DNA of 64,000 nucleotides from NCBI GenBank assembly GCA_020832235.1, contig JAFIEZ010000018.1:124001-188000 (forward strand), given 5' to 3'. Both the position numbers and the translations under genes were made by a program. Below, one piece after another: positions 21,475-31,817 of the stretch (positions are counted from its first letter, which is position 1; each line of letters starts with the position of its first letter). This DNA comes from Bacteroidota bacterium (lineage in GTDB: Bacteria > Bacteroidota > Rhodothermia > Balneolales > HLUCCA01). Under the pieces are notes generated by a model that was given only the letters and a program-made list of their open reading frames with translations, had not been told where the DNA came from and made no database searches.

Positions 21475-22740
21475 TTATGCGCTAGTTACCTGATCCAGGG
21501 ACTCCTCGAAAATTGCCAGCGCCTTGTCCAGCTCTTCACGGGTCACTACAAGCGGCGGAATCCAGCGAATGACATTCCCATACGTGCCGCAACTAAGCAT
21601 AAGCAAATTCTGACTGATGCAGGCCGCAACAACCTCTCGGGTAGTAAGCGGATCAGGCTCGCCCGTTTCAACGTTTGTAAACTCCGTTGCAACCATGAGT
21701 CCACGACCCCGAACATCCCCGATTACCGGATAACGGTGCTGTAGTTCACGCAACTTTCCCTGTAAATAGTCCCCGTTAACGCGCGCCCGGCGAGGCAGGT
21801 CTTCATCCAGCATCACATCAACCGTTGCACAAGCCGCAGCCGCAGCGATGGCGCTGCCTCCGCCATACGTCCCCCCATGCGTTCCGGGCATCCACTTCTC
21901 CATGAGTCTGGCGGATGCCGCTACGGCCGAAATCGGAAGTCCGCTACCGAGACCTTTTGCCATTACAATCACATCGGGCTTCACTCCGCTCTGCTCGAAG
22001 CAGAAAAAGCTCCCTGTTCTGCCAAAGCCACTCTGCACTTCATCCAGTACCAGAAGCATGCCATGCTCATCGCATACCTCGCGAAGGTGCCGAAGCCAAG
22101 CGGTCGGAGCAGGAACATAGCCGCCTTCGCCTAAAACCGGCTCAATGATTATGGCGGCGGTTTCGTCGGGCGCTGTCTGACCTTTAAGCAGGATGTCGAG
22201 CTGTTTCTTGCAGAATGCCAATGTAGCATCTTCATCCCACCCATACTGATAGGCATACGGGAATGGAGCCACGAAAATGCCCGACGGCAGGGGCTGAAAC
22301 CGATGCCGATACACCGTTTTGGAGGTGGTCATGGCCATGGTCAGGTGGGTTCGACCATGAAAACTGCCCTGAAATACGATTACATTCGGTCGACCAGTGG
22401 CGGCCTTGCACAGTTTCACGCAGGCCTCTGTGGCCTCGGCCCCACTGTTCGAGAAGAAGAACCGGTCGATATGCGCCGGCGTTACCTGATTCAACTTTTC
22501 AGCCAGTTCCACAGTTTTGCGGGGAATTACGCAGTTCATCTGACCAAATAGCAGTTGTGTGCTCTGCTGCTGAATAGCTTCGGTAACACGGGGGTGACAA
22601 TGACCAGTATTCACAACGCCGATTCCGGAGGTGAAATCCATATAGCGGTTCCCATCCGCATCATACAGGTAAATCCCTTCCCCGCGTGTGATTTCAGCGG
22701 TGGTGAGGTGTGTCCAGACTGGCGATAAATACTGTGACAT
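21475..22740 (-). CDS. Class III PLP-dependent aminotransferase (GABA/4-aminobutyrate type)
   Basis: A 421-residue fold-type I aminotransferase. The PLP lysine is Lys262 in VIVMAKGLGSG; Asp233 of VLDEVQ holds the pyridine nitrogen; SGAEATEA (residues ~99-106) binds phosphate. GIGVVNTGHCHPRV near residue 40 is typical of GABA and acetylornithine aminotransferases. Its position at the end of a leftward set (regulator, carbamoyl hydrolase, aldehyde dehydrogenase, this enzyme) fits conversion of GABA to succinate semialdehyde. The alternative, an ornithine or diaminobutyrate aminotransferase, cannot be excluded by sequence alone. Separated by 137 bp from the aldehyde dehydrogenase, so it may have its own promoter. 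Confidence 0.85.
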   Translation of the reverse strand: MSQYLSPVWTHLTTAEITRGEGIYLYDADGNRYMDFTSGIGVVNTGHCHPRVTEAIQQQSTQLLFGQMNCVIPRKTVELAEKLNQVTPAHIDRFFFSNSGAEATEACVKLCKAATGRPNVIVFQGSFHGRTHLTMAMTTSKTVYRHRFQPLPSGIFVAPFPYAYQYGWDEDATLAFCKKQLDILLKGQTAPDETAAIIIEPVLGEGGYVPAPTAWLRHLREVCDEHGMLLVLDEVQSGFGRTGSFFCFEQSGVKPDVIVMAKGLGSGLPISAVAASARLMEKWMPGTHGGTYGGGSAIAAAAACATVDVMLDEDLPRRARVNGDYLQGKLRELQHRYPVIGDVRGRGLMVATEFTNVETGEPDPLTTREVVAACISQNLLMLSCGTYGNVIRWIPPLVVTREELDKALAIFEESLDQVTSA

Positions 22741-22877
22741 GTGTGTTGCTGTGATTACGTGTTTACGTTTTTAACAGATAGTTAGGGTTGCGTACAAAGG
22801 CGTACGTGAATCCGCAATAATCCACCGTTGAAGCGTTCAAACGATGGATAACAGGTTGATGTAATTCGAAAATAAGA

Positions 22878-24347
22878 TCACAATTTTACCCACACAGCCT
22901 TCTCTTGCGTGTACAGGTCCAGCGCACTGCGCCCCATTTCCCGTCCAATACCACTTTCTTTATAGCCTCCAAAGGGTACAGCGGGATGAAACATATCGTA
23001 GCCGTTAATCCACACCACTCCGGCCTGCAATTCATGGGCAATCCTGTGGGCGCGCGAAATATCTTTTGTCCAGACGGCGGAGGCCAATCCGTACCGGGTT
23101 CCGTTCGCCATCGATAGCAACTCATCCTCATCAGAAAACGGCGTAATCGTCACTACCGGACCAAAAATTTCTTCCTGCACGATGCTTGACTGCTGGTTAC
23201 CGGCGGCAAAAATGGTAGGTTCAACGAAATATCCATCCGCCAGCTCGTCGGCCTGACGCCGCCCCCCAAGCACCAGATCGGCTTCGGTGCGCCCTGCACG
23301 GATATAGTCCTGCACACGATTCAGTTGCTGTTCTGAAATCAGCGGTCCCAGATCGGGATTCGACATTCCGGGACCCATTTTCAGCCCCCTGGTATCGGCC
23401 GAAAGCGCATCCACCACTTCATCGTACCGACTCGCCTCCACATACACCCGCGACCCAAGCGTGCACTCCTGTCCGCTGTTGAAAAAACAGGCCCAAACCA
23501 GCGATTCCCTCACTTTTTGCATATCGGCATCCCCGAAAATAATATTGGGCGACTTCCCGCCCAGCTCCAGCGATACTTTTTTGAGGTTGGATGCAGCAGA
23601 TGCGGCCAGAATCTTCTTGCCCACCGCAGTAGAACCGGTAAAACCAACTTTGTCGATGTCGTTGTGATGGGAGAGCAACGCGCCGGTTTCTCCATCACCA
23701 GGAAGCACCTGCACCATTCCTGCAGGAAACCCCGCTTCGCGTATAAGTCCGGCCAGATACAGGGCTGAAAGAGGCGTTTGTTGAGCAGGTTTGAGGATGC
23801 AGCAATTGCCACATGCCAGTGCCGGAGCCAGCTTCCAGATCGCCATCACCAACGGGAAGTTCCACGGCACGATCAGCGCTACCACTCCCAGCGCCTCACG
23901 ACGGGTATAGACCAACACGGATGGGTCCTGAACGGGAATCTGAGCTCCCTCAATCTTGTCGGCCCATCCGGCGTAGTACTGCAGATGACCGACGGCGGAT
24001 TTCATGTCGGCCAGGGCGCGTTTATACGGTTTCCCATTATCGATGCACTCAATTTCGGCAAGAACACCCATATCGCGCCTAATGAGCTCGGCTAGTCGAT
24101 GGAGCAGAGCGGCACGCTTCCCCGGCGACATCGACCTTACTCCCGCAGTAAATGCCTTCCGGGCTGCATCCACAGCCGCATCCACGTCGGCCTTCCCGGC
24201 CTTGGCAACATTGCAAATACGCTTTCCATCGGCAGGATTTACCGTTTCGAACGATTCTCCGCTCCCTGAAACCACCCACTCGTTGTTGATAAACAGCCGC
24301 TTCTCCGACTGCAAAAAAGACTTCGTGTTATCCGATAGTTGTTTCAT
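22878..24347 (-). CDS. NAD(P)-dependent aldehyde dehydrogenase (aminobutyraldehyde/betaine-aldehyde type)
   Basis: A 489-residue class I/II aldehyde dehydrogenase, full length. The catalytic Cys is Cys295 in NSGQECTLGSR and the general base is Glu261 in SLELGGKSPNI; Asn163 of VPWNFP stabilises the oxyanion; GFTGST (236-241) binds the cofactor. The sequence type is close to gamma-aminobutyraldehyde and betaine-aldehyde dehydrogenases. Next to two aminotransferases and a deiminase-family gene, oxidation of 4-aminobutanal to GABA is the most economical role. It sits 29 bp downstream of the carbamoyl-hydrolase gene, clearly in the same transcript. Confidence 0.88.
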   Translation of the reverse strand: MKQLSDNTKSFLQSEKRLFINNEWVVSGSGESFETVNPADGKRICNVAKAGKADVDAAVDAARKAFTAGVRSMSPGKRAALLHRLAELIRRDMGVLAEIECIDNGKPYKRALADMKSAVGHLQYYAGWADKIEGAQIPVQDPSVLVYTRREALGVVALIVPWNFPLVMAIWKLAPALACGNCCILKPAQQTPLSALYLAGLIREAGFPAGMVQVLPGDGETGALLSHHNDIDKVGFTGSTAVGKKILAASAASNLKKVSLELGGKSPNIIFGDADMQKVRESLVWACFFNSGQECTLGSRVYVEASRYDEVVDALSADTRGLKMGPGMSNPDLGPLISEQQLNRVQDYIRAGRTEADLVLGGRRQADELADGYFVEPTIFAAGNQQSSIVQEEIFGPVVTITPFSDEDELLSMANGTRYGLASAVWTKDISRAHRIAHELQAGVVWINGYDMFHPAVPFGGYKESGIGREMGRSALDLYTQEKAVWVKL

Positions 24348-24376
24348 AATTCCTCGGTTTTTAGATCATATCGATG

Positions 24377-25660
24377 CTACTTTAACTTCAGCAAAGTTGC
24401 CAGCAGCACATTCGCACCCGCAATCACATGCTCATCACGGGCAAATTCGGCTTCATTATGACTGATACCGTCCCTACAGGGAATAAAAATCATAGCCGTT
24501 GGCGCCACACGCGACACATACACCGCGTCATGTCCCGCCCCGCTCACCATCCTTCGATGCGCATAGTTCAACTGCCTGGCCGCCGCCTCCACCGCATCCA
24601 CACAACCGGCATCAAAATGAACAGGCGGTGAATGCCAGATTTCCGTGCAGCCAATGCCATCACCAGCGCAAATCTCCAGCACCTGTTCATGCATAGCCTG
24701 AAGCGTATCTGCAAGAGGATGGCGGATGTCCACACTAAACTGCACCGTTCCAGGCACCGTATTCCGCGACCCTGGCTGCACCGAGAGCTCTCCGATCGTT
24801 ATTCTGGCATCATCGCCAAATCCCGCTGCCATCGTATATAATCGAGAAATCAGAGCACCAAGAACAGGTACAGGATCGTTGCGCATCGCCATCGGGGAAG
24901 GACCTGCGTGCGTCTCCTTTCCGTGTATGGTCACATCGTACCAGCGTATACCCTGAACTCCCCCGACAATGCCGATTGATTCCCCGGCCTGCTCCAGAAT
25001 GGGTCCCTGCTCAATATGGAGCTCAATGTAGGCCTTCACCGGCGAACTCGGCAAACTCGGCGAACTCGGCAAACTCGGCGACTCAGGCGACTCAGGCGAC
25101 TCAGGCGAATCCGTTCGATACACCGCTGATCGACTTCCGGCAAAACCGATGCATTTGAGCGCATCACCCAGTCGCGTACCCGAAGCGTCTGTTCTATCGA
25201 GGGCGTATTCCAGCGTGAATGCTCCTGCAAACACGCCCGAAGCAATCATCGCGGGAGCAAATCGCGCCCCCTCCTCATTGGTCCACGAAACAATTTCGAT
25301 ATCGTACGCATGATTGATGTTGTTTTCGATAAGTACCTCCACTGCCTCCAACGCTGCCAGTACGCCCAAAACGCCATCGAAGCGCCCACCCGAGGGTTGA
25401 GAATCGAGATGCGAGCCGGTTAGCAGCACGGGTTGAAGGGAATCTCCTCGAGGCCTGGCCCTCTTTCGGGCGAAAATTGAGCCCATCTCATCAACGGTGA
25501 CCTCAAGATTAAGCTCCCGGCACCAGCGTATGAACAGCTCCCGTGCCAACTTGTCCTCATCTGTCAGGGCCAGCCTCCGCACACCTCCGTTCGGCAGCGC
25601 ACCGATTTCGGCCATGGTCTGCATCCTGCCCAATAAACGCGTGGCGTTAACGGTAATCAT
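24377..25660 (-). CDS. M20-family N-carbamoyl-amino-acid/carbamoyl-amine hydrolase
   Basis: A 427-residue Zn-dependent amidohydrolase of the carbamoylase/allantoate-amidohydrolase/beta-ureidopropionase group. Metal and catalytic residues are in GSHLDSQPSGGRFDG, NEEGARF, ELHIEQGP, SGAGHDA and the final DGISHNEAE. Such enzymes release CO2 and NH3 from N-carbamoyl groups. The ATG at 25660 is preferred to one at 25690 because it overlaps the regulator stop as ATGA, the classical coupling signal. Residues ~183-206 are an unusual SPE/SPS/LPS repeat coded by a 9-bp tandem array. In this cluster it may act on N-carbamoylputrescine or N-carbamoyl-beta-alanine; no nitrilase-type AguB is present. Confidence 0.85.
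   Translation of the reverse strand: MITVNATRLLGRMQTMAEIGALPNGGVRRLALTDEDKLARELFIRWCRELNLEVTVDEMGSIFARKRARPRGDSLQPVLLTGSHLDSQPSGGRFDGVLGVLAALEAVEVLIENNINHAYDIEIVSWTNEEGARFAPAMIASGVFAGAFTLEYALDRTDASGTRLGDALKCIGFAGSRSAVYRTDSPESPESPESPSLPSSPSLPSSPVKAYIELHIEQGPILEQAGESIGIVGGVQGIRWYDVTIHGKETHAGPSPMAMRNDPVPVLGALISRLYTMAAGFGDDARITIGELSVQPGSRNTVPGTVQFSVDIRHPLADTLQAMHEQVLEICAGDGIGCTEIWHSPPVHFDAGCVDAVEAAARQLNYAHRRMVSGAGHDAVYVSRVAPTAMIFIPCRDGISHNEAEFARDEHVIAGANVLLATLLKLK
25041..25112. repeat. 9-bp tandem repeat inside the carbamoyl-hydrolase gene
   Basis: Eight 9-bp units in a row: GGCGAACTC and GGCAAACTC alternate four times, then GGCGACTCA three times, then a degenerate GGCGAATCC. Each unit is three codons in the minus frame, so gain or loss of a unit keeps the reading frame. 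Confidence 0.9.
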
Positions 25661-26127
25661 GGCGATGAACTCACGGTATGCGCCGCCCATTTCAGGATCT
25701 GCAGATACATGGTGGTGCTGGTTTCATTCACGCCTTCAATGGTCAGGATGTGGTCGTCCATGAGCTTGAGGAGTTCCTCGTTGCTTCTGCATGTAATATT
25801 GACTTCAAGATCATACGCGCCGGTGGTAATAGCCACGAAACTGACTTCTTCAATGGCCGTGAGCGCTTCTGCTACCTGACGAATACGTCGGGTAGGACGC
25901 ACCTTCAGCATCACCCGGGCATAGGCGTTCATACCGTTTTTCACGGGGTCTGTCCACCCAATGATATGCAGTACGCCCTGCTCAACAAGGCGGTTGTATC
26001 GGTTTCGGGCCATGCCCACCGATACGCCCAGATCTTGGGAAAGATCGGTGAATGAGCGACGCCCATCCTGACTCAGGATACGCAGGACGCGTATATCGAT
26101 GTGGTCAATCTCAAACTTTTCTTTCAT
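25657..26127 (-). CDS. Lrp/AsnC-family transcriptional regulator
   Basis: A 156-residue protein with an N-terminal winged helix (DHIDIRVLRILSQDGRRSF, recognition helix around VSVGMARNRYNRLVEQG) and a C-terminal RAM/AsnC ligand domain (residues ~70-145, ending EGVNETSTTMYLQILK). Members sense amino acids or related metabolites and bind AT-rich DNA as octamers. It is the first gene of the leftward unit and its stop overlaps the hydrolase start by four bases, so it probably controls itself, the downstream catabolic genes and the divergent aminotransferase at 26255. The paired AT-rich boxes at 26176-26219 are candidate sites. Confidence 0.9.
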   Translation of the reverse strand: MKEKFEIDHIDIRVLRILSQDGRRSFTDLSQDLGVSVGMARNRYNRLVEQGVLHIIGWTDPVKNGMNAYARVMLKVRPTRRIRQVAEALTAIEEVSFVAITTGAYDLEVNITCRSNEELLKLMDDHILTIEGVNETSTTMYLQILKWAAHTVSSSP

Positions 26128-26175
26128 AGCAGTGAAGCGCTAACGTTGACATTATTTTTATTTATTTCCTGCCAA

Positions 26176-26219
26176 AATAAAATATTTTTATTTTAAATGT
26201 TAATTCAATAAAATATTTT
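26176..26219. promoter_or_regulatory. Paired AT-rich boxes, candidate Lrp-type binding sites
   Basis: AATAAAATATTTT occurs at 26176-26188 and again at 26207-26219, 31 bp (three helical turns) apart, in the 127-bp spacer between the Lrp-type regulator and the divergent aminotransferase. Each box is near-palindromic. The spacing on one DNA face fits cooperative binding by an Lrp octamer. Confidence 0.6.
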
Positions 26220-26254
26220 CACAATAGAGTATTTAAGTACCGAACGAATTAATC

Positions 26255-27640
26255 ATGCCAAACACCGTCGTCAAATCGCCCTGGGAACTCGACCGCGATC
26301 ACGTGTTCCATCCCTACACCAACTTCCTGCATTTTCATAAGGAAGGAACTACCATATTTACCCGGGCTCAAGGACATCACATCGAAGACATCGACGGTAA
26401 CCGCTACCTCGACGGCATGGCTGGACTCTGGTGCGTAAATATTGGTCATGGCAATCGCGAACTGGCCGACTATATCGGAAATCAGGCCGCAGAACTGGCC
26501 TATTTTAACACCTTCGAAAATGCAGGATCGGTTCCCGCGGCCCAGCTGGCAGCCAAACTTGCCGAATTGGCGCCCGGCGACCTTAACCACACCTTTTTCG
26601 GCACCGGCGGATCCATGGCCAATGATACCGCCATCAAGCTGGTACATTATTACTTCAACATCCTGGGGAAACCTCAGAAAAAGAAAATCATCTCCCGTGA
26701 ACTCGGTTATCACGGCAGCACCTACCTCGCGCACACCCTCACCGGCATTGCCTGGTCACAGATCGGTTTCGACCTGGTGCCCGACCTCGTTCATTACGTC
26801 TCCGCACCCTATCAGTACCGAAACGGCGACGGTTTGACGGAAGCCGAATTTTGTGATACGCTCATTGCCGAGTTGGAGCAGAAAATACTGGATTTAGGTC
26901 CCGATAACGTAGCCTGTTTCATCGCTGAACCCATAATGGGCGCAGGCGGCGTAATTGTACCACCCCAGGGATACCAACGCCGCACCTGGGAAGTATGTCA
27001 GAAATACGATGTTCTATACATCTCGGATGAAGTCGTTACCGCGTTTGGTCGGCTCGGTCACATGGTAACATCACAAGATCTGTTCGGATTTCAGCCGGAC
27101 ATCCTGGTTATGGCCAAAGGTATTTCCTCCGGGTATATACCCCTCGGCGCCACTATGATTTCCGACCGGATGTATGAGGTGCTCAGAACCCCGAAAAAGG
27201 AGAATCCCAACTTCACGCATGGATTTACCTACTCGGGACATCCCGTTGCCTGCGCCGCCGGAGTAAAAAATATTGAAATCATGGAAAGAATGGACTTATG
27301 CGGCAACGTACTCAGGCTTGGGCCCTACTTTGAAGCGCAACTGCAGGCGTTGTCGGAGTACGAAATCGTTGGCGAAGTACGCGGAAGCCACTTCATGATG
27401 TGTCTGGAGCTGGTCCGTGATAAGGCTACAAAGGCAATTTTCGGCGAGGATGTGGATGTAACCAAGCGCGTATACCGGCACTGCAAAAAACGTGGACTCA
27501 TGATGCGGCCGATCGGGTCGCTGTGCGTGTTTTCTCCACCGCTAACCTTCGACAAGGCGGCCATCGACGAAACCGTAACCATCGTTAAAGATAGTCTGGA
27601 AGCCACCATCGCAGACCTCAAACGGGAAGGACATGTATAG
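26255..27640 (+). CDS. Class III aminotransferase, putrescine/beta-alanine:pyruvate type (SpuC-like)
   Basis: A 461-residue PLP enzyme. The PLP lysine is Lys288 in ILVMAKGISSGY and the pyridine-binding Asp is Asp258 in YISDEVV. LDGMAGLWCVNIGHG (residues ~52-66) and FIAEPIMGAGGVIVPP are patterns of putrescine:pyruvate and omega-amino-acid:pyruvate aminotransferases. Expected reaction: putrescine to 4-aminobutanal with pyruvate as acceptor; beta-alanine is the main alternative. It is divergent from the Lrp-type regulator and its last eight bases overlap the start of the deiminase-family gene, so the two are translated together. The ATG at 26255 begins the family's usual N-terminus. Confidence 0.87.
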   Translation: MPNTVVKSPWELDRDHVFHPYTNFLHFHKEGTTIFTRAQGHHIEDIDGNRYLDGMAGLWCVNIGHGNRELADYIGNQAAELAYFNTFENAGSVPAAQLAAKLAELAPGDLNHTFFGTGGSMANDTAIKLVHYYFNILGKPQKKKIISRELGYHGSTYLAHTLTGIAWSQIGFDLVPDLVHYVSAPYQYRNGDGLTEAEFCDTLIAELEQKILDLGPDNVACFIAEPIMGAGGVIVPPQGYQRRTWEVCQKYDVLYISDEVVTAFGRLGHMVTSQDLFGFQPDILVMAKGISSGYIPLGATMISDRMYEVLRTPKKENPNFTHGFTYSGHPVACAAGVKNIEIMERMDLCGNVLRLGPYFEAQLQALSEYEIVGEVRGSHFMMCLELVRDKATKAIFGEDVDVTKRVYRHCKKRGLMMRPIGSLCVFSPPLTFDKAAIDETVTIVKDSLEATIADLKREGHV

Positions 27641-28925
27641 TAAACTGTTCAAAACCTGCTTAGCGCTGATGCTCACGCTGCCGGTGTTGATGGCAGGATG
27701 CAGCGAACAGAACACCTCCGGCGATACCCCGGTTGTGGTTCGTCAGGCCGCCGAGTTTGAAGATCAGACGGCCACGTGGATCAGCTGGCCACAGATGGAG
27801 CATAAAACAGGGATGTCGAACGAAGCCGTTGTACTGGAAAAGATTGCGGCCCTCACCCGAGCTGATCAGCAGGTTCGCATCGCCATTCCTGACTCCGCCG
27901 CACTACAACGAGCCTCATCCACCGTCAACCAACATATTGATCAGCACGAATTGGTGAGCTACTACGTGGTTGACCATTACGAATGGTGGATTCGCGACAC
28001 GGGTCCCGCATTTGTGGAGACCGCCGATGGCGGCCGGGCCGTGGTGAACTTCCGGTTCAATGCCTGGGGTTATGCCGATGCCGACGACCCCGATATTCAG
28101 GCGGATGCAGCCCTGGCCCGTAATCTGGCTAAACAACTCGGCTACCCGGTCATCGAGTCGCAGATGATCAGCGAAGGCGGAAACCGCGAAGTGAACGGGC
28201 GCGGAACGCTCATGCTGTCGGCCGCCACCGAGGAGAATCGCAATCCGCATATGTCGCGTGAAGAAATGGAGGCTGAATTTGCCAGGGTGCTCGGCGTGAG
28301 TAACGTGATTTGGTTGGAAGAAGGCTTGTACGAAGACGACCATACGTTTATGGGTCCTAAAACATTGGCCGATGGCAGTAACGCATATACAGTGGTCACA
28401 ACCCTGGGGCATGTCGACGAGTTTGCCCGGTTTGTAGACGAAAACACCATCCTGCTGGCTGTTGTTCCCGAAGAAGATCTGCACGACCCCATTGCCCGGG
28501 AGAATCACCGCCGGATGGAGGTCAACTACGAAATTCTGCGCAATGCCACCGATCAAGACGGGAACCCGTTTCGCATTATTCGTGTGCCGCTGAACCAGAA
28601 ACTGGTGTTCACCATGCAGCCCGGCGACTACGTGTATGAGTTCATCAGCACGCTGGACTATCTTGATGGATCCGTTTTCCCGATCGGGGAGCCCGTTCAG
28701 GTTATAGCTGCGGCCAGTTATCTGAATTTCACCATTACACCCGGCGTCATTTTAGCACAAAAATTCGGCACCCCCGACGACCCGGTGAACACCCTACGCG
28801 ATGCGGAGGTTCAGCGCATCATGACAGAGGTATTCCCGGGTCGTGAGGTGGTGATGATTTATCCTGTGGCAGTAAATCTGGGCGGTGGCGGGCTCCACTG
28901 TGTTACCCTCCATCAACCAAAATGA
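27633..28925 (+). CDS. Agmatine deiminase / Porphyromonas-type peptidyl-arginine deiminase family lipoprotein
   Basis: A 430-residue guanidino-group-modifying enzyme with a lipoprotein signal peptide (lipobox LMAGC, Cys23). Family residues are intact: FEDQTATWISWP, WWIRDTGP (Asp122), EGGNREVNGRGT, GHVDEFARF (His260, Asp262) and the catalytic Cys423 in GGGGLHCVT. Agmatine deiminases turn agmatine into N-carbamoylputrescine plus ammonia; the Porphyromonas enzyme citrullinates peptides instead. The gene neighbourhood favours agmatine, while export favours the peptidyl-arginine type; sequence alone does not settle it. Its start lies within the end of the aminotransferase gene and a GGGAAGG ribosome-binding site precedes it. 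Confidence 0.85.
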   Translation: MYSKLFKTCLALMLTLPVLMAGCSEQNTSGDTPVVVRQAAEFEDQTATWISWPQMEHKTGMSNEAVVLEKIAALTRADQQVRIAIPDSAALQRASSTVNQHIDQHELVSYYVVDHYEWWIRDTGPAFVETADGGRAVVNFRFNAWGYADADDPDIQADAALARNLAKQLGYPVIESQMISEGGNREVNGRGTLMLSAATEENRNPHMSREEMEAEFARVLGVSNVIWLEEGLYEDDHTFMGPKTLADGSNAYTVVTTLGHVDEFARFVDENTILLAVVPEEDLHDPIARENHRRMEVNYEILRNATDQDGNPFRIIRVPLNQKLVFTMQPGDYVYEFISTLDYLDGSVFPIGEPVQVIAAASYLNFTITPGVILAQKFGTPDDPVNTLRDAEVQRIMTEVFPGREVVMIYPVAVNLGGGGLHCVTLHQPK

Positions 28926-28935
28926 GCCCCCAATA

Positions 28936-28949
28936 CGTGGTTAACCACG
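28936..28949. promoter_or_regulatory. 14-bp perfect palindrome before the antiporter gene
   Basis: CGTGGTTAACCACG is perfectly symmetric and lies 11 bp after the deiminase stop and 89 bp before the antiporter start. It could be an operator for the antiporter or a weak hairpin; there is no T-run. Confidence 0.4.
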
Positions 28950-29037
28950 ATAATCACTGACCATGGATAACGATTCTCGAATGCATGTACGCACTTATTT
29001 AGTCTACAATCCAAGCCCATAAAGGTCCGCAGTCATT

Positions 29038-30402
29038 ATGGAACATTACGGCGTTTTATCTCTGGTCCCCGCGCTGGTTGTCGTAGCCTTTGCCCTGAAA
29101 ACGCACAAGACCTTCGAGGCACTCATGGCCGGCTCGCTGGTGGGATTCGTAATGCTCCACTTCTTCGGTTTCATCAACGCCTTCAGCGACAGCCTCATCG
29201 GTCTCATGACCAACGAAACCATAGGCTGGATTATACTCGTGTGCGGGCTTTTCGGGTCCCTCATCCAGATTCTGGTGCACACCGGCGGGGCGGCGGCCTT
29301 CGCCAACGGACTCTTAACGCGGGTTAATACCGCCCGCGGCGCCATGATTACCACCTGGTTTATGGGACTGCTTATTTTCATTGACGACTACCTGAACGCA
29401 CTCACCATCGGCAACTCCATGCGTAAGGTCACAGACCGATTCCGCATCTCTCGCGAAAAACTGGCCTACATCGTTGACTCCACAGCGGCACCCATCTGCG
29501 TACTCGTACCACTTTCAACCTGGGCCATCTACATCTCCGGCCTCCTCGAAGCCACGGGAATGGCCGAAGCCGGAAGGGGTCTGAACAGCTATCTGAGCAT
29601 CATTCCGTTCATGGTCTACGCCTGGGTCGCCATCCTCATTGTACCACTGGTAGCGCTGAAACTCATCCCCTCCCTTGGTCCGATGAAACGGGCCGACGAG
29701 CGGGTGGATTCCGGCGGTGATCTGGCTCCTCCCAACTCCTACAATATTGCCATGGACATCCCCGAGGCGGAGGGAACCAGTCCGGTTACGGCGGATTTCA
29801 TTTTGCCAATTGTAGTGCTAATTGCCGCCACGGTCTGGTTCGAGATTGATGCGCTGCGCGGTATCATTTACAGTCTGATGTTCACCATCGTGTACTTCGC
29901 GTTTGTGCGCAAAGGCTTCGGACTGTTCCCCATGATTGAGCTGGCCTTCAAGGGATTCAAAGGCATGGTGTACACCCTGGCCATCATTGTGATGTCGTTT
30001 GTGCTCAAAGATGTGAACGATGCGTTGGGACTCACCGAATTTGTTATTGAAACCATAACTCCGGTGCTGAGTCCGGCCTGGCTGCCGGCATTGGCATTCG
30101 TTTCGCTCTCGCTCATCACCTTTGCCACGGGCTCGTTCTGGGGCGTATACGCCATTACCTTGCCCATCATTGTACCACTGGCTATTTCGATGGATGCCAA
30201 CCTGTATCTGGCAACCGGCGCGGTGGTCTCGGCCGGAGCCTTCGGCTCGCACGCCTGCTTCTATGGCGACTCTACCGTGCTCTCCTCATCTGCTACAGGC
30301 TGTAACAACATGGCCCATGCCACCACCCAGTTCCCCTATGCACTTATTGCCGGAGGAATCAGTTTTTTCATCTACATCGCTTTAGGGTACATATTCGCCT
30401 AG
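29038..30402 (+). CDS. NhaC-family Na+/H+ antiporter-type transporter
   Basis: A 454-residue membrane protein with about 11-12 helices. Conserved family stretches are FIDDYLNALTIGNSMRKVTD in TM5 and its symmetric partner near the C-terminus, SAGAFGSHACFYGDSTVLSSSATG, which carry the ion-binding Asp residues. NhaC relatives include Na+/H+, malate/lactate and amino-acid antiporters, so the true substrate may be an amine or amino acid from this catabolic cluster. It follows the deiminase gene after 112 bp and could be cotranscribed. Confidence 0.87.
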   Translation: MEHYGVLSLVPALVVVAFALKTHKTFEALMAGSLVGFVMLHFFGFINAFSDSLIGLMTNETIGWIILVCGLFGSLIQILVHTGGAAAFANGLLTRVNTARGAMITTWFMGLLIFIDDYLNALTIGNSMRKVTDRFRISREKLAYIVDSTAAPICVLVPLSTWAIYISGLLEATGMAEAGRGLNSYLSIIPFMVYAWVAILIVPLVALKLIPSLGPMKRADERVDSGGDLAPPNSYNIAMDIPEAEGTSPVTADFILPIVVLIAATVWFEIDALRGIIYSLMFTIVYFAFVRKGFGLFPMIELAFKGFKGMVYTLAIIVMSFVLKDVNDALGLTEFVIETITPVLSPAWLPALAFVSLSLITFATGSFWGVYAITLPIIVPLAISMDANLYLATGAVVSAGAFGSHACFYGDSTVLSSSATGCNNMAHATTQFPYALIAGGISFFIYIALGYIFA

Positions 30403-30515
30403 ATAATTCGGGTAAATACTCGAACTTATGGAGAAGTCTATTGATGAAATTGATCAGGGTATTCATACTATTTTCCGAAAAAAAAACCGCCTCGACATGG
30501 AGTAATCCCTCTCTT

Positions 30516-31817
30516 ATGAACCACTTTACTGCCGCACTACTCGTTATTTTACTCGCCACCGCCTGCTCGTCATCGGATGTGAATCAGCCACCCCTGACAC
30601 AGTCCCAAATTGAGCTCCTCGATCAGGGACTTGATCAAATAACCCGCGATTTTGAACTTATGGCACTGGCTGTTGTGTATATCCGGAATTTCCAGGTCGC
30701 CTACGAAGGCTACACCGGATATGCCGTTTACGAAACCCGGTCGCCATTCAACCGAAACAGTGTGGTGCGGATCGCCTCCCCCAGTAAAACGCTTACCACC
30801 ATCGCCCTGATGCAATTATACGAACAGGGATTGGTGGATATCGACGCTGATGTAAGCACCTATTTAGGATGGGAGCTGCGAAACCCTCGCTGGCCCGACA
30901 CCCCTGTCACGCTGCGCATGTTGCTCGGACATACCTCCAGCATCGCCGATGGTCGTTCTTACAGCGCCTTTGCCCGATCTATGATTACTGAGCAACTTCC
31001 CATTCGTGCGCTATTCACCGGTTCTTCCAATGCACAGCTCGCGTGGGATGGCTATTCACCGGAAATTTTCTCTGAGCACGAGCCCGGATCGTACTTTTCA
31101 TACAGCAATGCCGCCTGGGGACTCATCGCAAGCGTCATCGAGCGCGTTACCGGCCAGCAGTTTGATGTGTATACCCGCTCCAGCATCTTTGAACCGCTTG
31201 GTATTGAGGCGTCATTTAACATTACCGACATTCACCCTGATTATATTGCGGCCCTGTATCGGTATCAGAACGAGCAGTGGACTCCGCAAGTTGATTTCTA
31301 CCCCGACAGTCCGCCGCAAGATCGCATGTACGAAGGCTATGAGCCGGGTCATAACGGCTTGATTTACGCGCCTCAGGGTGGATTGCGCATCAGCACCAGT
31401 GGACTGATTGCTTTGGCCAACGTCCTGCTCAACGGTGGACATACCTCCACAGCGCCGGACCAGGAGCCCGTGCACATCCTTCAGGAAGAAACCCTGCGCG
31501 AAATGCAGGCCGAAAACTGGCGTTATGATGGGAGCAACGGCAACACCTGGGATGATTTCTGGATGTCGTTCGGACTGGGATTACACCGATTGACCGGCGA
31601 GCCCGGCAGAGATGTGATTTTCCCCGGCAAGCAGATGGTCGGTCACCCCGGCATCGCTTACGGACTCTTAAGTGATATTTACGTTGATCCGTCTACCGGT
31701 ACAGGCGTAATTTTCATCACAACGGGCAGCAAAAATGGGTTCGAATACGGGGAAACTTCCTTCTATGAGGTGGAAGAAGCCGTTTTTCAGCTGCTGAACG
31801 CCATACGGAACGATTGA
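30516..31817 (+). CDS. Serine hydrolase lipoprotein, class C beta-lactamase/DD-peptidase fold
   Basis: A 433-residue lipoprotein; the ATG at 30516 is chosen because it starts the signal peptide with lipobox LATAC (Cys17), whereas the ATG at 30441 would put 25 hydrophilic residues in front. The catalytic tetrad SPSK (Ser88, Lys91) and the YSN motif (Tyr196-Asn198) mark the beta-lactamase/penicillin-binding fold; GHPGIAYG near the end may replace the KTG/HxG motif. Many proteins of this family are esterases or D-amino peptidases and not true resistance enzymes. It lies 113 bp after the antiporter gene in the same orientation. Confidence 0.85.
   Translation: MNHFTAALLVILLATACSSSDVNQPPLTQSQIELLDQGLDQITRDFELMALAVVYIRNFQVAYEGYTGYAVYETRSPFNRNSVVRIASPSKTLTTIALMQLYEQGLVDIDADVSTYLGWELRNPRWPDTPVTLRMLLGHTSSIADGRSYSAFARSMITEQLPIRALFTGSSNAQLAWDGYSPEIFSEHEPGSYFSYSNAAWGLIASVIERVTGQQFDVYTRSSIFEPLGIEASFNITDIHPDYIAALYRYQNEQWTPQVDFYPDSPPQDRMYEGYEPGHNGLIYAPQGGLRISTSGLIALANVLLNGGHTSTAPDQEPVHILQEETLREMQAENWRYDGSNGNTWDDFWMSFGLGLHRLTGEPGRDVIFPGKQMVGHPGIAYGLLSDIYVDPSTGTGVIFITTGSKNGFEYGETSFYEVEEAVFQLLNAIRND

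Follow-up and report, generated by a model that had tools for sequence, protein, structure and literature searches.

Within the 64,000-nucleotide stretch of Bacteroidota DNA analysed here (the window), positions 21475-30402 hold seven intact genes, arranged by their open reading frames in two divergent arms that flank a 127-base AT-rich gap. The leftward arm runs, in order, through lrp, an M20 hydrolase, an aldehyde dehydrogenase (ALDH), and a GABA-transaminase (GABA-T)-type aminotransferase, while the rightward arm encodes a SpuC-like aminotransferase of the PRK07036 group, a PAD_porph-family lipoprotein, and an NhaC-family transporter. Profile searches placed all seven in their families far above chance. 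The features are as follows:

21475-22740, minus strand: class III aminotransferase of the GABA-transaminase type (Aminotran_3, 407 bits), predicted to convert GABA to succinate semialdehyde
22878-24347, minus strand: aldehyde dehydrogenase of the betaine/aminobutyraldehyde dehydrogenase group (Aldedh, 574 bits)
24377-25660, minus strand: M20 hydantoinase/carbamoylase-family hydrolase (TIGR01879, 391 bits), predicted to convert N-carbamoyl-GABA to GABA, CO2, and NH3
25040-25108, minus strand: in-frame tandem repeat within the M20 gene (TRF arrays, score up to 84)
25657-26127, minus strand: Lrp/AsnC-family regulator (AsnC_trans_reg and HTH_AsnC)
26128-26254, no strand: divergent intergenic region, AT-rich (three-way alignment)
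26255-27640, plus strand: omega-aminotransferase, SpuC-like, PRK07036 group (NF005447, 672 bits)
27633-28925, plus strand: predicted exported lipoprotein deiminase of the PAD_porph/agmatine deiminase family (PF04371, 242 bits)
29038-30402, plus strand: NhaC-family secondary transporter (PF03553, 110 bits)
30516-31817 (ORF 30441-31817), plus strand: class-C-beta-lactamase-like serine hydrolase (PF00144, 148 bits)

The earlier note had counted eight genes in 21475-30402; there are seven, and eight is reached only with the adjacent serine hydrolase (30441-31817), which on comparative evidence is the eighth member of the locus. The divergent layout around a central Lrp regulator that it described is real and is kept in HLUCCA01, in a second congener, and, without the ALDH gene, in a Saprospiraceae genome. 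Synteny with the window is full in HLUCCA01 (69-94% identity) and extends to the limit of the contig in the second congener. The Lrp protein is 88% identical in HLUCCA01 and 52% identical in Saprospiraceae, and its position is unchanged in both. The listed frame of the M20 gene extends to 25690, and the start is likely the ATG at 25660, which overlaps the lrp stop codon. Three-way alignment of the intergenic region showed that the window and HLUCCA01 share a run, AAAATAAAATATTTTTATTTTAAAT. This region likely holds one or more predicted Lrp sites together with promoters; promoter and terminator scans gave no excess above shuffled sequence.

Family assignments are unambiguous; all substrates are predicted. 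The GABA-T-type aminotransferase scored 394 bits against TIGR00700 (equivalog cut-off 507 not reached); the substrate-named NCBIfam groups that match it best are GABA transaminases, each under its equivalog cut-off, and its solved relatives are PuuE/GabT. The SpuC-like enzyme exceeds the cut-off of NF005447/PRK07036 (672 bits, cut-off 618), a model whose name gives no substrate, and its amine donor is predicted to be N-carbamoylputrescine, or putrescine. The ALDH, of the BADH/ABALDH type with no equivalog cut-off met, is predicted to oxidise 4-ureidobutanal, or 4-aminobutanal; it is 42-46% identical to ALDHs encoded beside or near M20 genes in Halomonas, Ensifer, Rhizobium, and Agrobacterium. 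The NhaC-family transporter, linked also in Saprospiraceae, Rhodothermia, and Halomonas loci, is predicted to take up N-carbamoylputrescine or agmatine. The serine hydrolase has a lipoprotein-type N-terminus if it starts, as seems likely, at 30516 within its frame; relatives (43-45% identity) lie between the lipoprotein deiminase and NhaC genes in two Saprospiraceae loci, and the enzyme possibly releases an amine (agmatine or arginine) from a conjugate.

The lipoprotein deiminase and the M20 hydrolase

The catalytic residue of the deiminase is Cys423, and D122, E181, H260, D262, and C423, which comprise the catalytic Cys, the His, and the guanidine-binding acids, are conserved. The lipobox cysteine, Cys23, is present in 16/16 exported-family rows of the alignment, and the protein is best read as an exported lipoprotein, predicted to act on agmatine outside the cytoplasm. 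Against the AguA equivalog TIGR03380 it scored 167 bits, its best stretch being partial, and did not reach the cut-off of 381.8. The nearest folds to its AlphaFold model (pLDDT 92) are agmatine deiminases, at TMt of about 0.8-0.88, while comparison with PPAD gave a TMt of 0.65 at 16% identity. A PPAD-type peptidylarginine deiminase was rejected, the fold being clearly nearer to the agmatine deiminases.

Asp220 of the plant agmatine deiminase contacts the amine of agmatine (PMC6447857). Asp89 of MtAIH corresponds to Glu117 of the window deiminase, and nothing aligns with Asp220, where an insertion lies; across the family, TTxGH plus this insertion stands where the plant enzyme has D..GH. With no counterpart of Asp220 at its position, the enzyme could in fact act on a guanidino compound other than agmatine. 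In Arenibacter algicola (L074:2154-13555), peptidase- and acylase-like genes, not amine genes, are found close to the lipoprotein deiminase, suggesting that substrates may vary within the family. Phyllobacterium has two proteins of the agmatine deiminase family, and one of them (L100:2652-3746) has a Tat-like signal at its start (MITRRNILKATSG); export of a deiminase may therefore have evolved independently there.

The M20 hydrolase exceeds the curated TIGR01879 cut-off of 204 bits. In the PDB it matches beta-ureidopropionase-like enzymes best, and the top match, 5THW, was solved with N-carbamoyl-beta-alanine. In the N-carbamoyl-beta-alanine amidohydrolase of Rhizobium radiobacter (8C46), three residues, Glu131, Gln196, and His385, set the orientation of the carbamoyl group, and the carboxylate of the substrate is bound by Arg291; the enzyme also hydrolyses N-carbamoyl-gamma-aminobutyrate, and with aminobutyrate its activity rose more than 1.5-fold when the carbamide sat at the gamma instead of the alpha position (PMC10952681). 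Glu131, Gln196, Arg291, and His385 correspond to E139, Q228, R323, and H411 of the window enzyme, with a constant offset of six, and all four are identical in 22/22 M20 sequences compared. N-carbamoylputrescine would present an ammonium group where M20 enzymes expect a carboxylate, which 4-ureidobutyrate would supply; this is a supporting consideration, and Arg323 alone is no proof of a carboxylate substrate, since it is conserved family-wide. The repeat at 25040-25108, read from the DNA, encodes a SPESPESPES...SLPSSP linker that no other compared genome has: it is absent in the two congeners and the Saprospiraceae relative.

AguB and its partners in this and other genomes

The claim that AguB is absent holds at the locus but fails genome-wide. 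In this assembly, 96.8% complete, contig 13 encodes a full-length AguB-type nitrilase (TIGR03381, 330 bits; equivalog cut-off 410 not reached) in a frame that overlaps the one for an agmatine deiminase, AguA (TIGR03380, 302 bits; L045:6529-8464), with the AguA start probably internal to the called frame. The overlapping pair tells in part against the reading, put forward in the earlier note, of the M20 enzyme as a replacement for AguB. AguB-like matches above 270 bits were found in both congeners and the Saprospiraceae M20 genome, and AguB-like genes in every M20-cluster Bacteroidota genome tested. The search for succinate-semialdehyde dehydrogenase (SSADH) that the same note had suggested gave no clear candidate among nine ALDH-family matches in the genome, those that were scanned passing no SSADH cut-off. 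A genome search for SpeA-type arginine decarboxylase gave a 29-bit match at best. Elsewhere in the genome (L040:1372-4389), the gene for an L-piperidine-6-carboxylate dehydrogenase (843 bits, exceeding the cut-off) adjoins a PLP-decarboxylase-like gene.

Three Rhodothermia genomes have a lipoprotein deiminase of 38-39% identity directly upstream of AguB (checked individually in two), and this arm faces SSADH-NhaC and GABA-T genes. Proteobacterial loci were drawn from a plasmid collection and picked by sequence similarity, and are not a random sample. Among them, Halomonas PA16-9 has divergent ALDH-M20 and aminotransferase-NhaC arms in which canonical AguA replaces the lipoprotein (the NhaC frame is broken in the record), and Phyllobacterium carries a relative of the PRK07036 aminotransferase with AguA, AguB, and a polyamine-type ABC transporter. 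Two Ensifer plasmids carry aminotransferase-AguB-AguA with ALDH and M20 nearby, AguB and M20 lying within about 7 kb in both loci. ORF-based BLAST had made AguB and M20 appear strictly exclusive, an impression overturned when six-frame tblastn detected AguB in both Ensifer loci. The annotated order on Agrobacterium pAt is ALDH, M20, GABA-T, SSADH, and the M20 protein encoded beside an ALDH and an aminotransferase in Rhizobium lusitanum nests in the Agrobacterium M20 clade (100/100 support).

A candidate carbamoyl-protected route from agmatine to GABA

These neighbourhoods (AguB, SSADH, GABA-T, AguA), together with the deiminase fold, support the earlier note's proposal that agmatine is broken down to GABA and succinate semialdehyde. 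The agmatine reading is supported because relatives of the deiminase pair with AguB, SSADH, and GABA-T, because relatives of the aminotransferase, ALDH, and M20 enzyme cluster with canonical AguA, and because agmatine deiminases are the nearest structural match of the deiminase model. We therefore regard agmatine breakdown to GABA, in general terms, as the probable role of the locus.

The step order proposed earlier is probably wrong, and a different one is suggested here. Gene content, synteny, conserved active-site residues, the lipobox, the modelled deiminase fold, and an AguB gene elsewhere in the genome are observed; all substrates, the direction of transport, and the sequence of steps are predicted. 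The exported lipoprotein deiminase would convert agmatine to N-carbamoylputrescine outside the cytoplasm, and the NhaC-family carrier would import the product. The PRK07036 aminotransferase would then take the free amine, yielding 4-ureidobutanal, which the ALDH would oxidise to 4-ureidobutyrate (N-carbamoyl-GABA). The M20 enzyme would release GABA, CO2, and NH3 from this ureido acid, and the GABA-T-type aminotransferase would convert GABA to succinate semialdehyde. With the second nitrogen capped, 4-aminobutanal, which can cyclise, would not form; gamma-glutamylation has the same effect in the Escherichia coli Puu pathway.

The annotated Agrobacterium order, ALDH-M20-GABA-T-SSADH, places M20 after aldehyde oxidation and is a stronger hint than the residues. 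Several observations weigh against the capped route: the PRK07036 aminotransferase also accompanies AguB, as would suit an enzyme acting on putrescine; the Saprospiraceae locus lacks the ALDH; no clear SSADH was found in the genome that carries the window; the deiminase has no residue in place of Asp220; and the deeper nodes of the M20 tree are poorly resolved. On balance, Lrp-controlled agmatine utilisation by exactly this carbamoyl-protected order has, in our judgement, an even chance of being correct. The broader proposal, an undescribed carbamoyl-protected pathway from agmatine to GABA that uses an M20 enzyme derived from beta-ureidopropionases and recurs in Bacteroidota and in alpha- and gamma-proteobacteria, is held tentatively, at a little under even chances; no description of a carbamoyl-capped agmatine-to-GABA route was found in the open-access literature. 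If true, N-carbamoylputrescine would be processed in a way that bypasses putrescine altogether, and agmatine could serve as food without higher cellular putrescine and without 4-aminobutanal. A function would also be suggested for three recurrent and vaguely annotated groups: PRK07036 aminotransferases, ALDH-adjacent "Zn-dependent hydrolase" M20 proteins, and exported "agmatine deiminase family" lipoproteins.

Pseudomonas aeruginosa catabolises agmatine through AguA/AguB with SpuC/KauB. The window shares with that system an agmatine deiminase family enzyme, a SpuC-like aminotransferase, an aminoaldehyde-type dehydrogenase, and a GABA transaminase, and differs in its predicted exported lipoprotein deiminase, NhaC carrier, and Lrp regulator, and in having an M20 metal hydrolase at the locus with AguB elsewhere in the genome. 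In the 4-guanidinobutyrate route, KauB is followed by GbuA; there too the terminal nitrogen group is removed only after oxidation to the acid, but by the ureohydrolase GbuA acting on a guanidino acid, whereas in the window M20 would act on a ureido acid. A parallel in logic exists in E. coli, whose Puu pathway retains a gamma-glutamyl cap until GABA release (PMC10135574). In both, one nitrogen would be capped, the aldehyde oxidised to the acid, and the cap taken off to give GABA; the Puu cap is gamma-glutamyl added with ATP, whereas the proposed cap is the carbamoyl group left by the deiminase, and the cap-removing enzymes belong to unrelated families. The window M20 protein shares its family and all four ligand-binding residues with the N-carbamoyl-beta-alanine amidohydrolases/L-carbamoylases 8C46, 5THW, and 3N5F, but lies among agmatine-type genes in a genome without a detected dihydropyrimidinase, and its predicted substrate is one carbon longer.

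Alternative readings of the locus

In the order of steps favoured by the earlier note, the M20 enzyme would hydrolyse N-carbamoylputrescine to putrescine as a non-orthologous AguB, and the aminotransferase and ALDH would then yield GABA. Phyllobacterium and Rhodothermia loci do have AguB where Halomonas and the window have M20, and a non-homologous enzyme has evolved at this step before: AguY is a non-canonical N-carbamoylputrescine amidohydrolase, possibly derived from GatA (PMC12283126). AguY, which is not an M20 protein, is a precedent that would also make a simple M20-for-AguB exchange a further case of known convergence. M20-cluster genomes encode AguB elsewhere, so no AguB activity is missing for M20 to supply, and the presence of both in one Ensifer locus would be odd if they did the same job. 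The carboxylate-binding Arg, conserved in 22/22 sequences, and the Agrobacterium gene order point the same way, leaving this use of M20 doubtful and on the whole unlikely.

The altered distal-amine site of the deiminase raises a second alternative, that it acts on another guanidino compound (for example 4-guanidinobutyrate or arginine-containing peptides), M20 on the matching ureido acid, and the aminotransferases on other amines. In Halioglobus (L112:7045-9224) and in Alisedimentitalea (L098:7111-9254), where arginase and agmatinase genes are close by, an M20 carbamoylase gene directly follows an ADI/DDAH-family deiminase gene, so the pairing of an early deiminase with a later M20 enzyme recurs; the Arenibacter relative near peptidase-like genes also fits. 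A guanidino acid would, however, need no diamine-type aminotransferase, related loci contain AguB and canonical AguA, and the deiminase fold is nearer to agmatine deiminase than to PPAD. We consider this alternative quite improbable.

Beta-alanine/pyrimidine or ureide breakdown with M20 as a beta-ureidopropionase, which the earlier note had kept as a rival to its own reading, is weak and very improbable despite the 5THW match: the best genome match to dihydropyrimidinase scored 148 bits (cut-off 393) and reads as a dihydroorotase, no deiminase is needed for pyrimidine breakdown, and the neighbours indicate agmatine. Some of the closest non-Bacteroidota M20 matches are pyrimidine-pathway enzymes adjoining PreA and dihydropyrimidinase, which could favour the pyrimidine reading and suggests that the M20 enzyme was recruited from pyrimidine breakdown.
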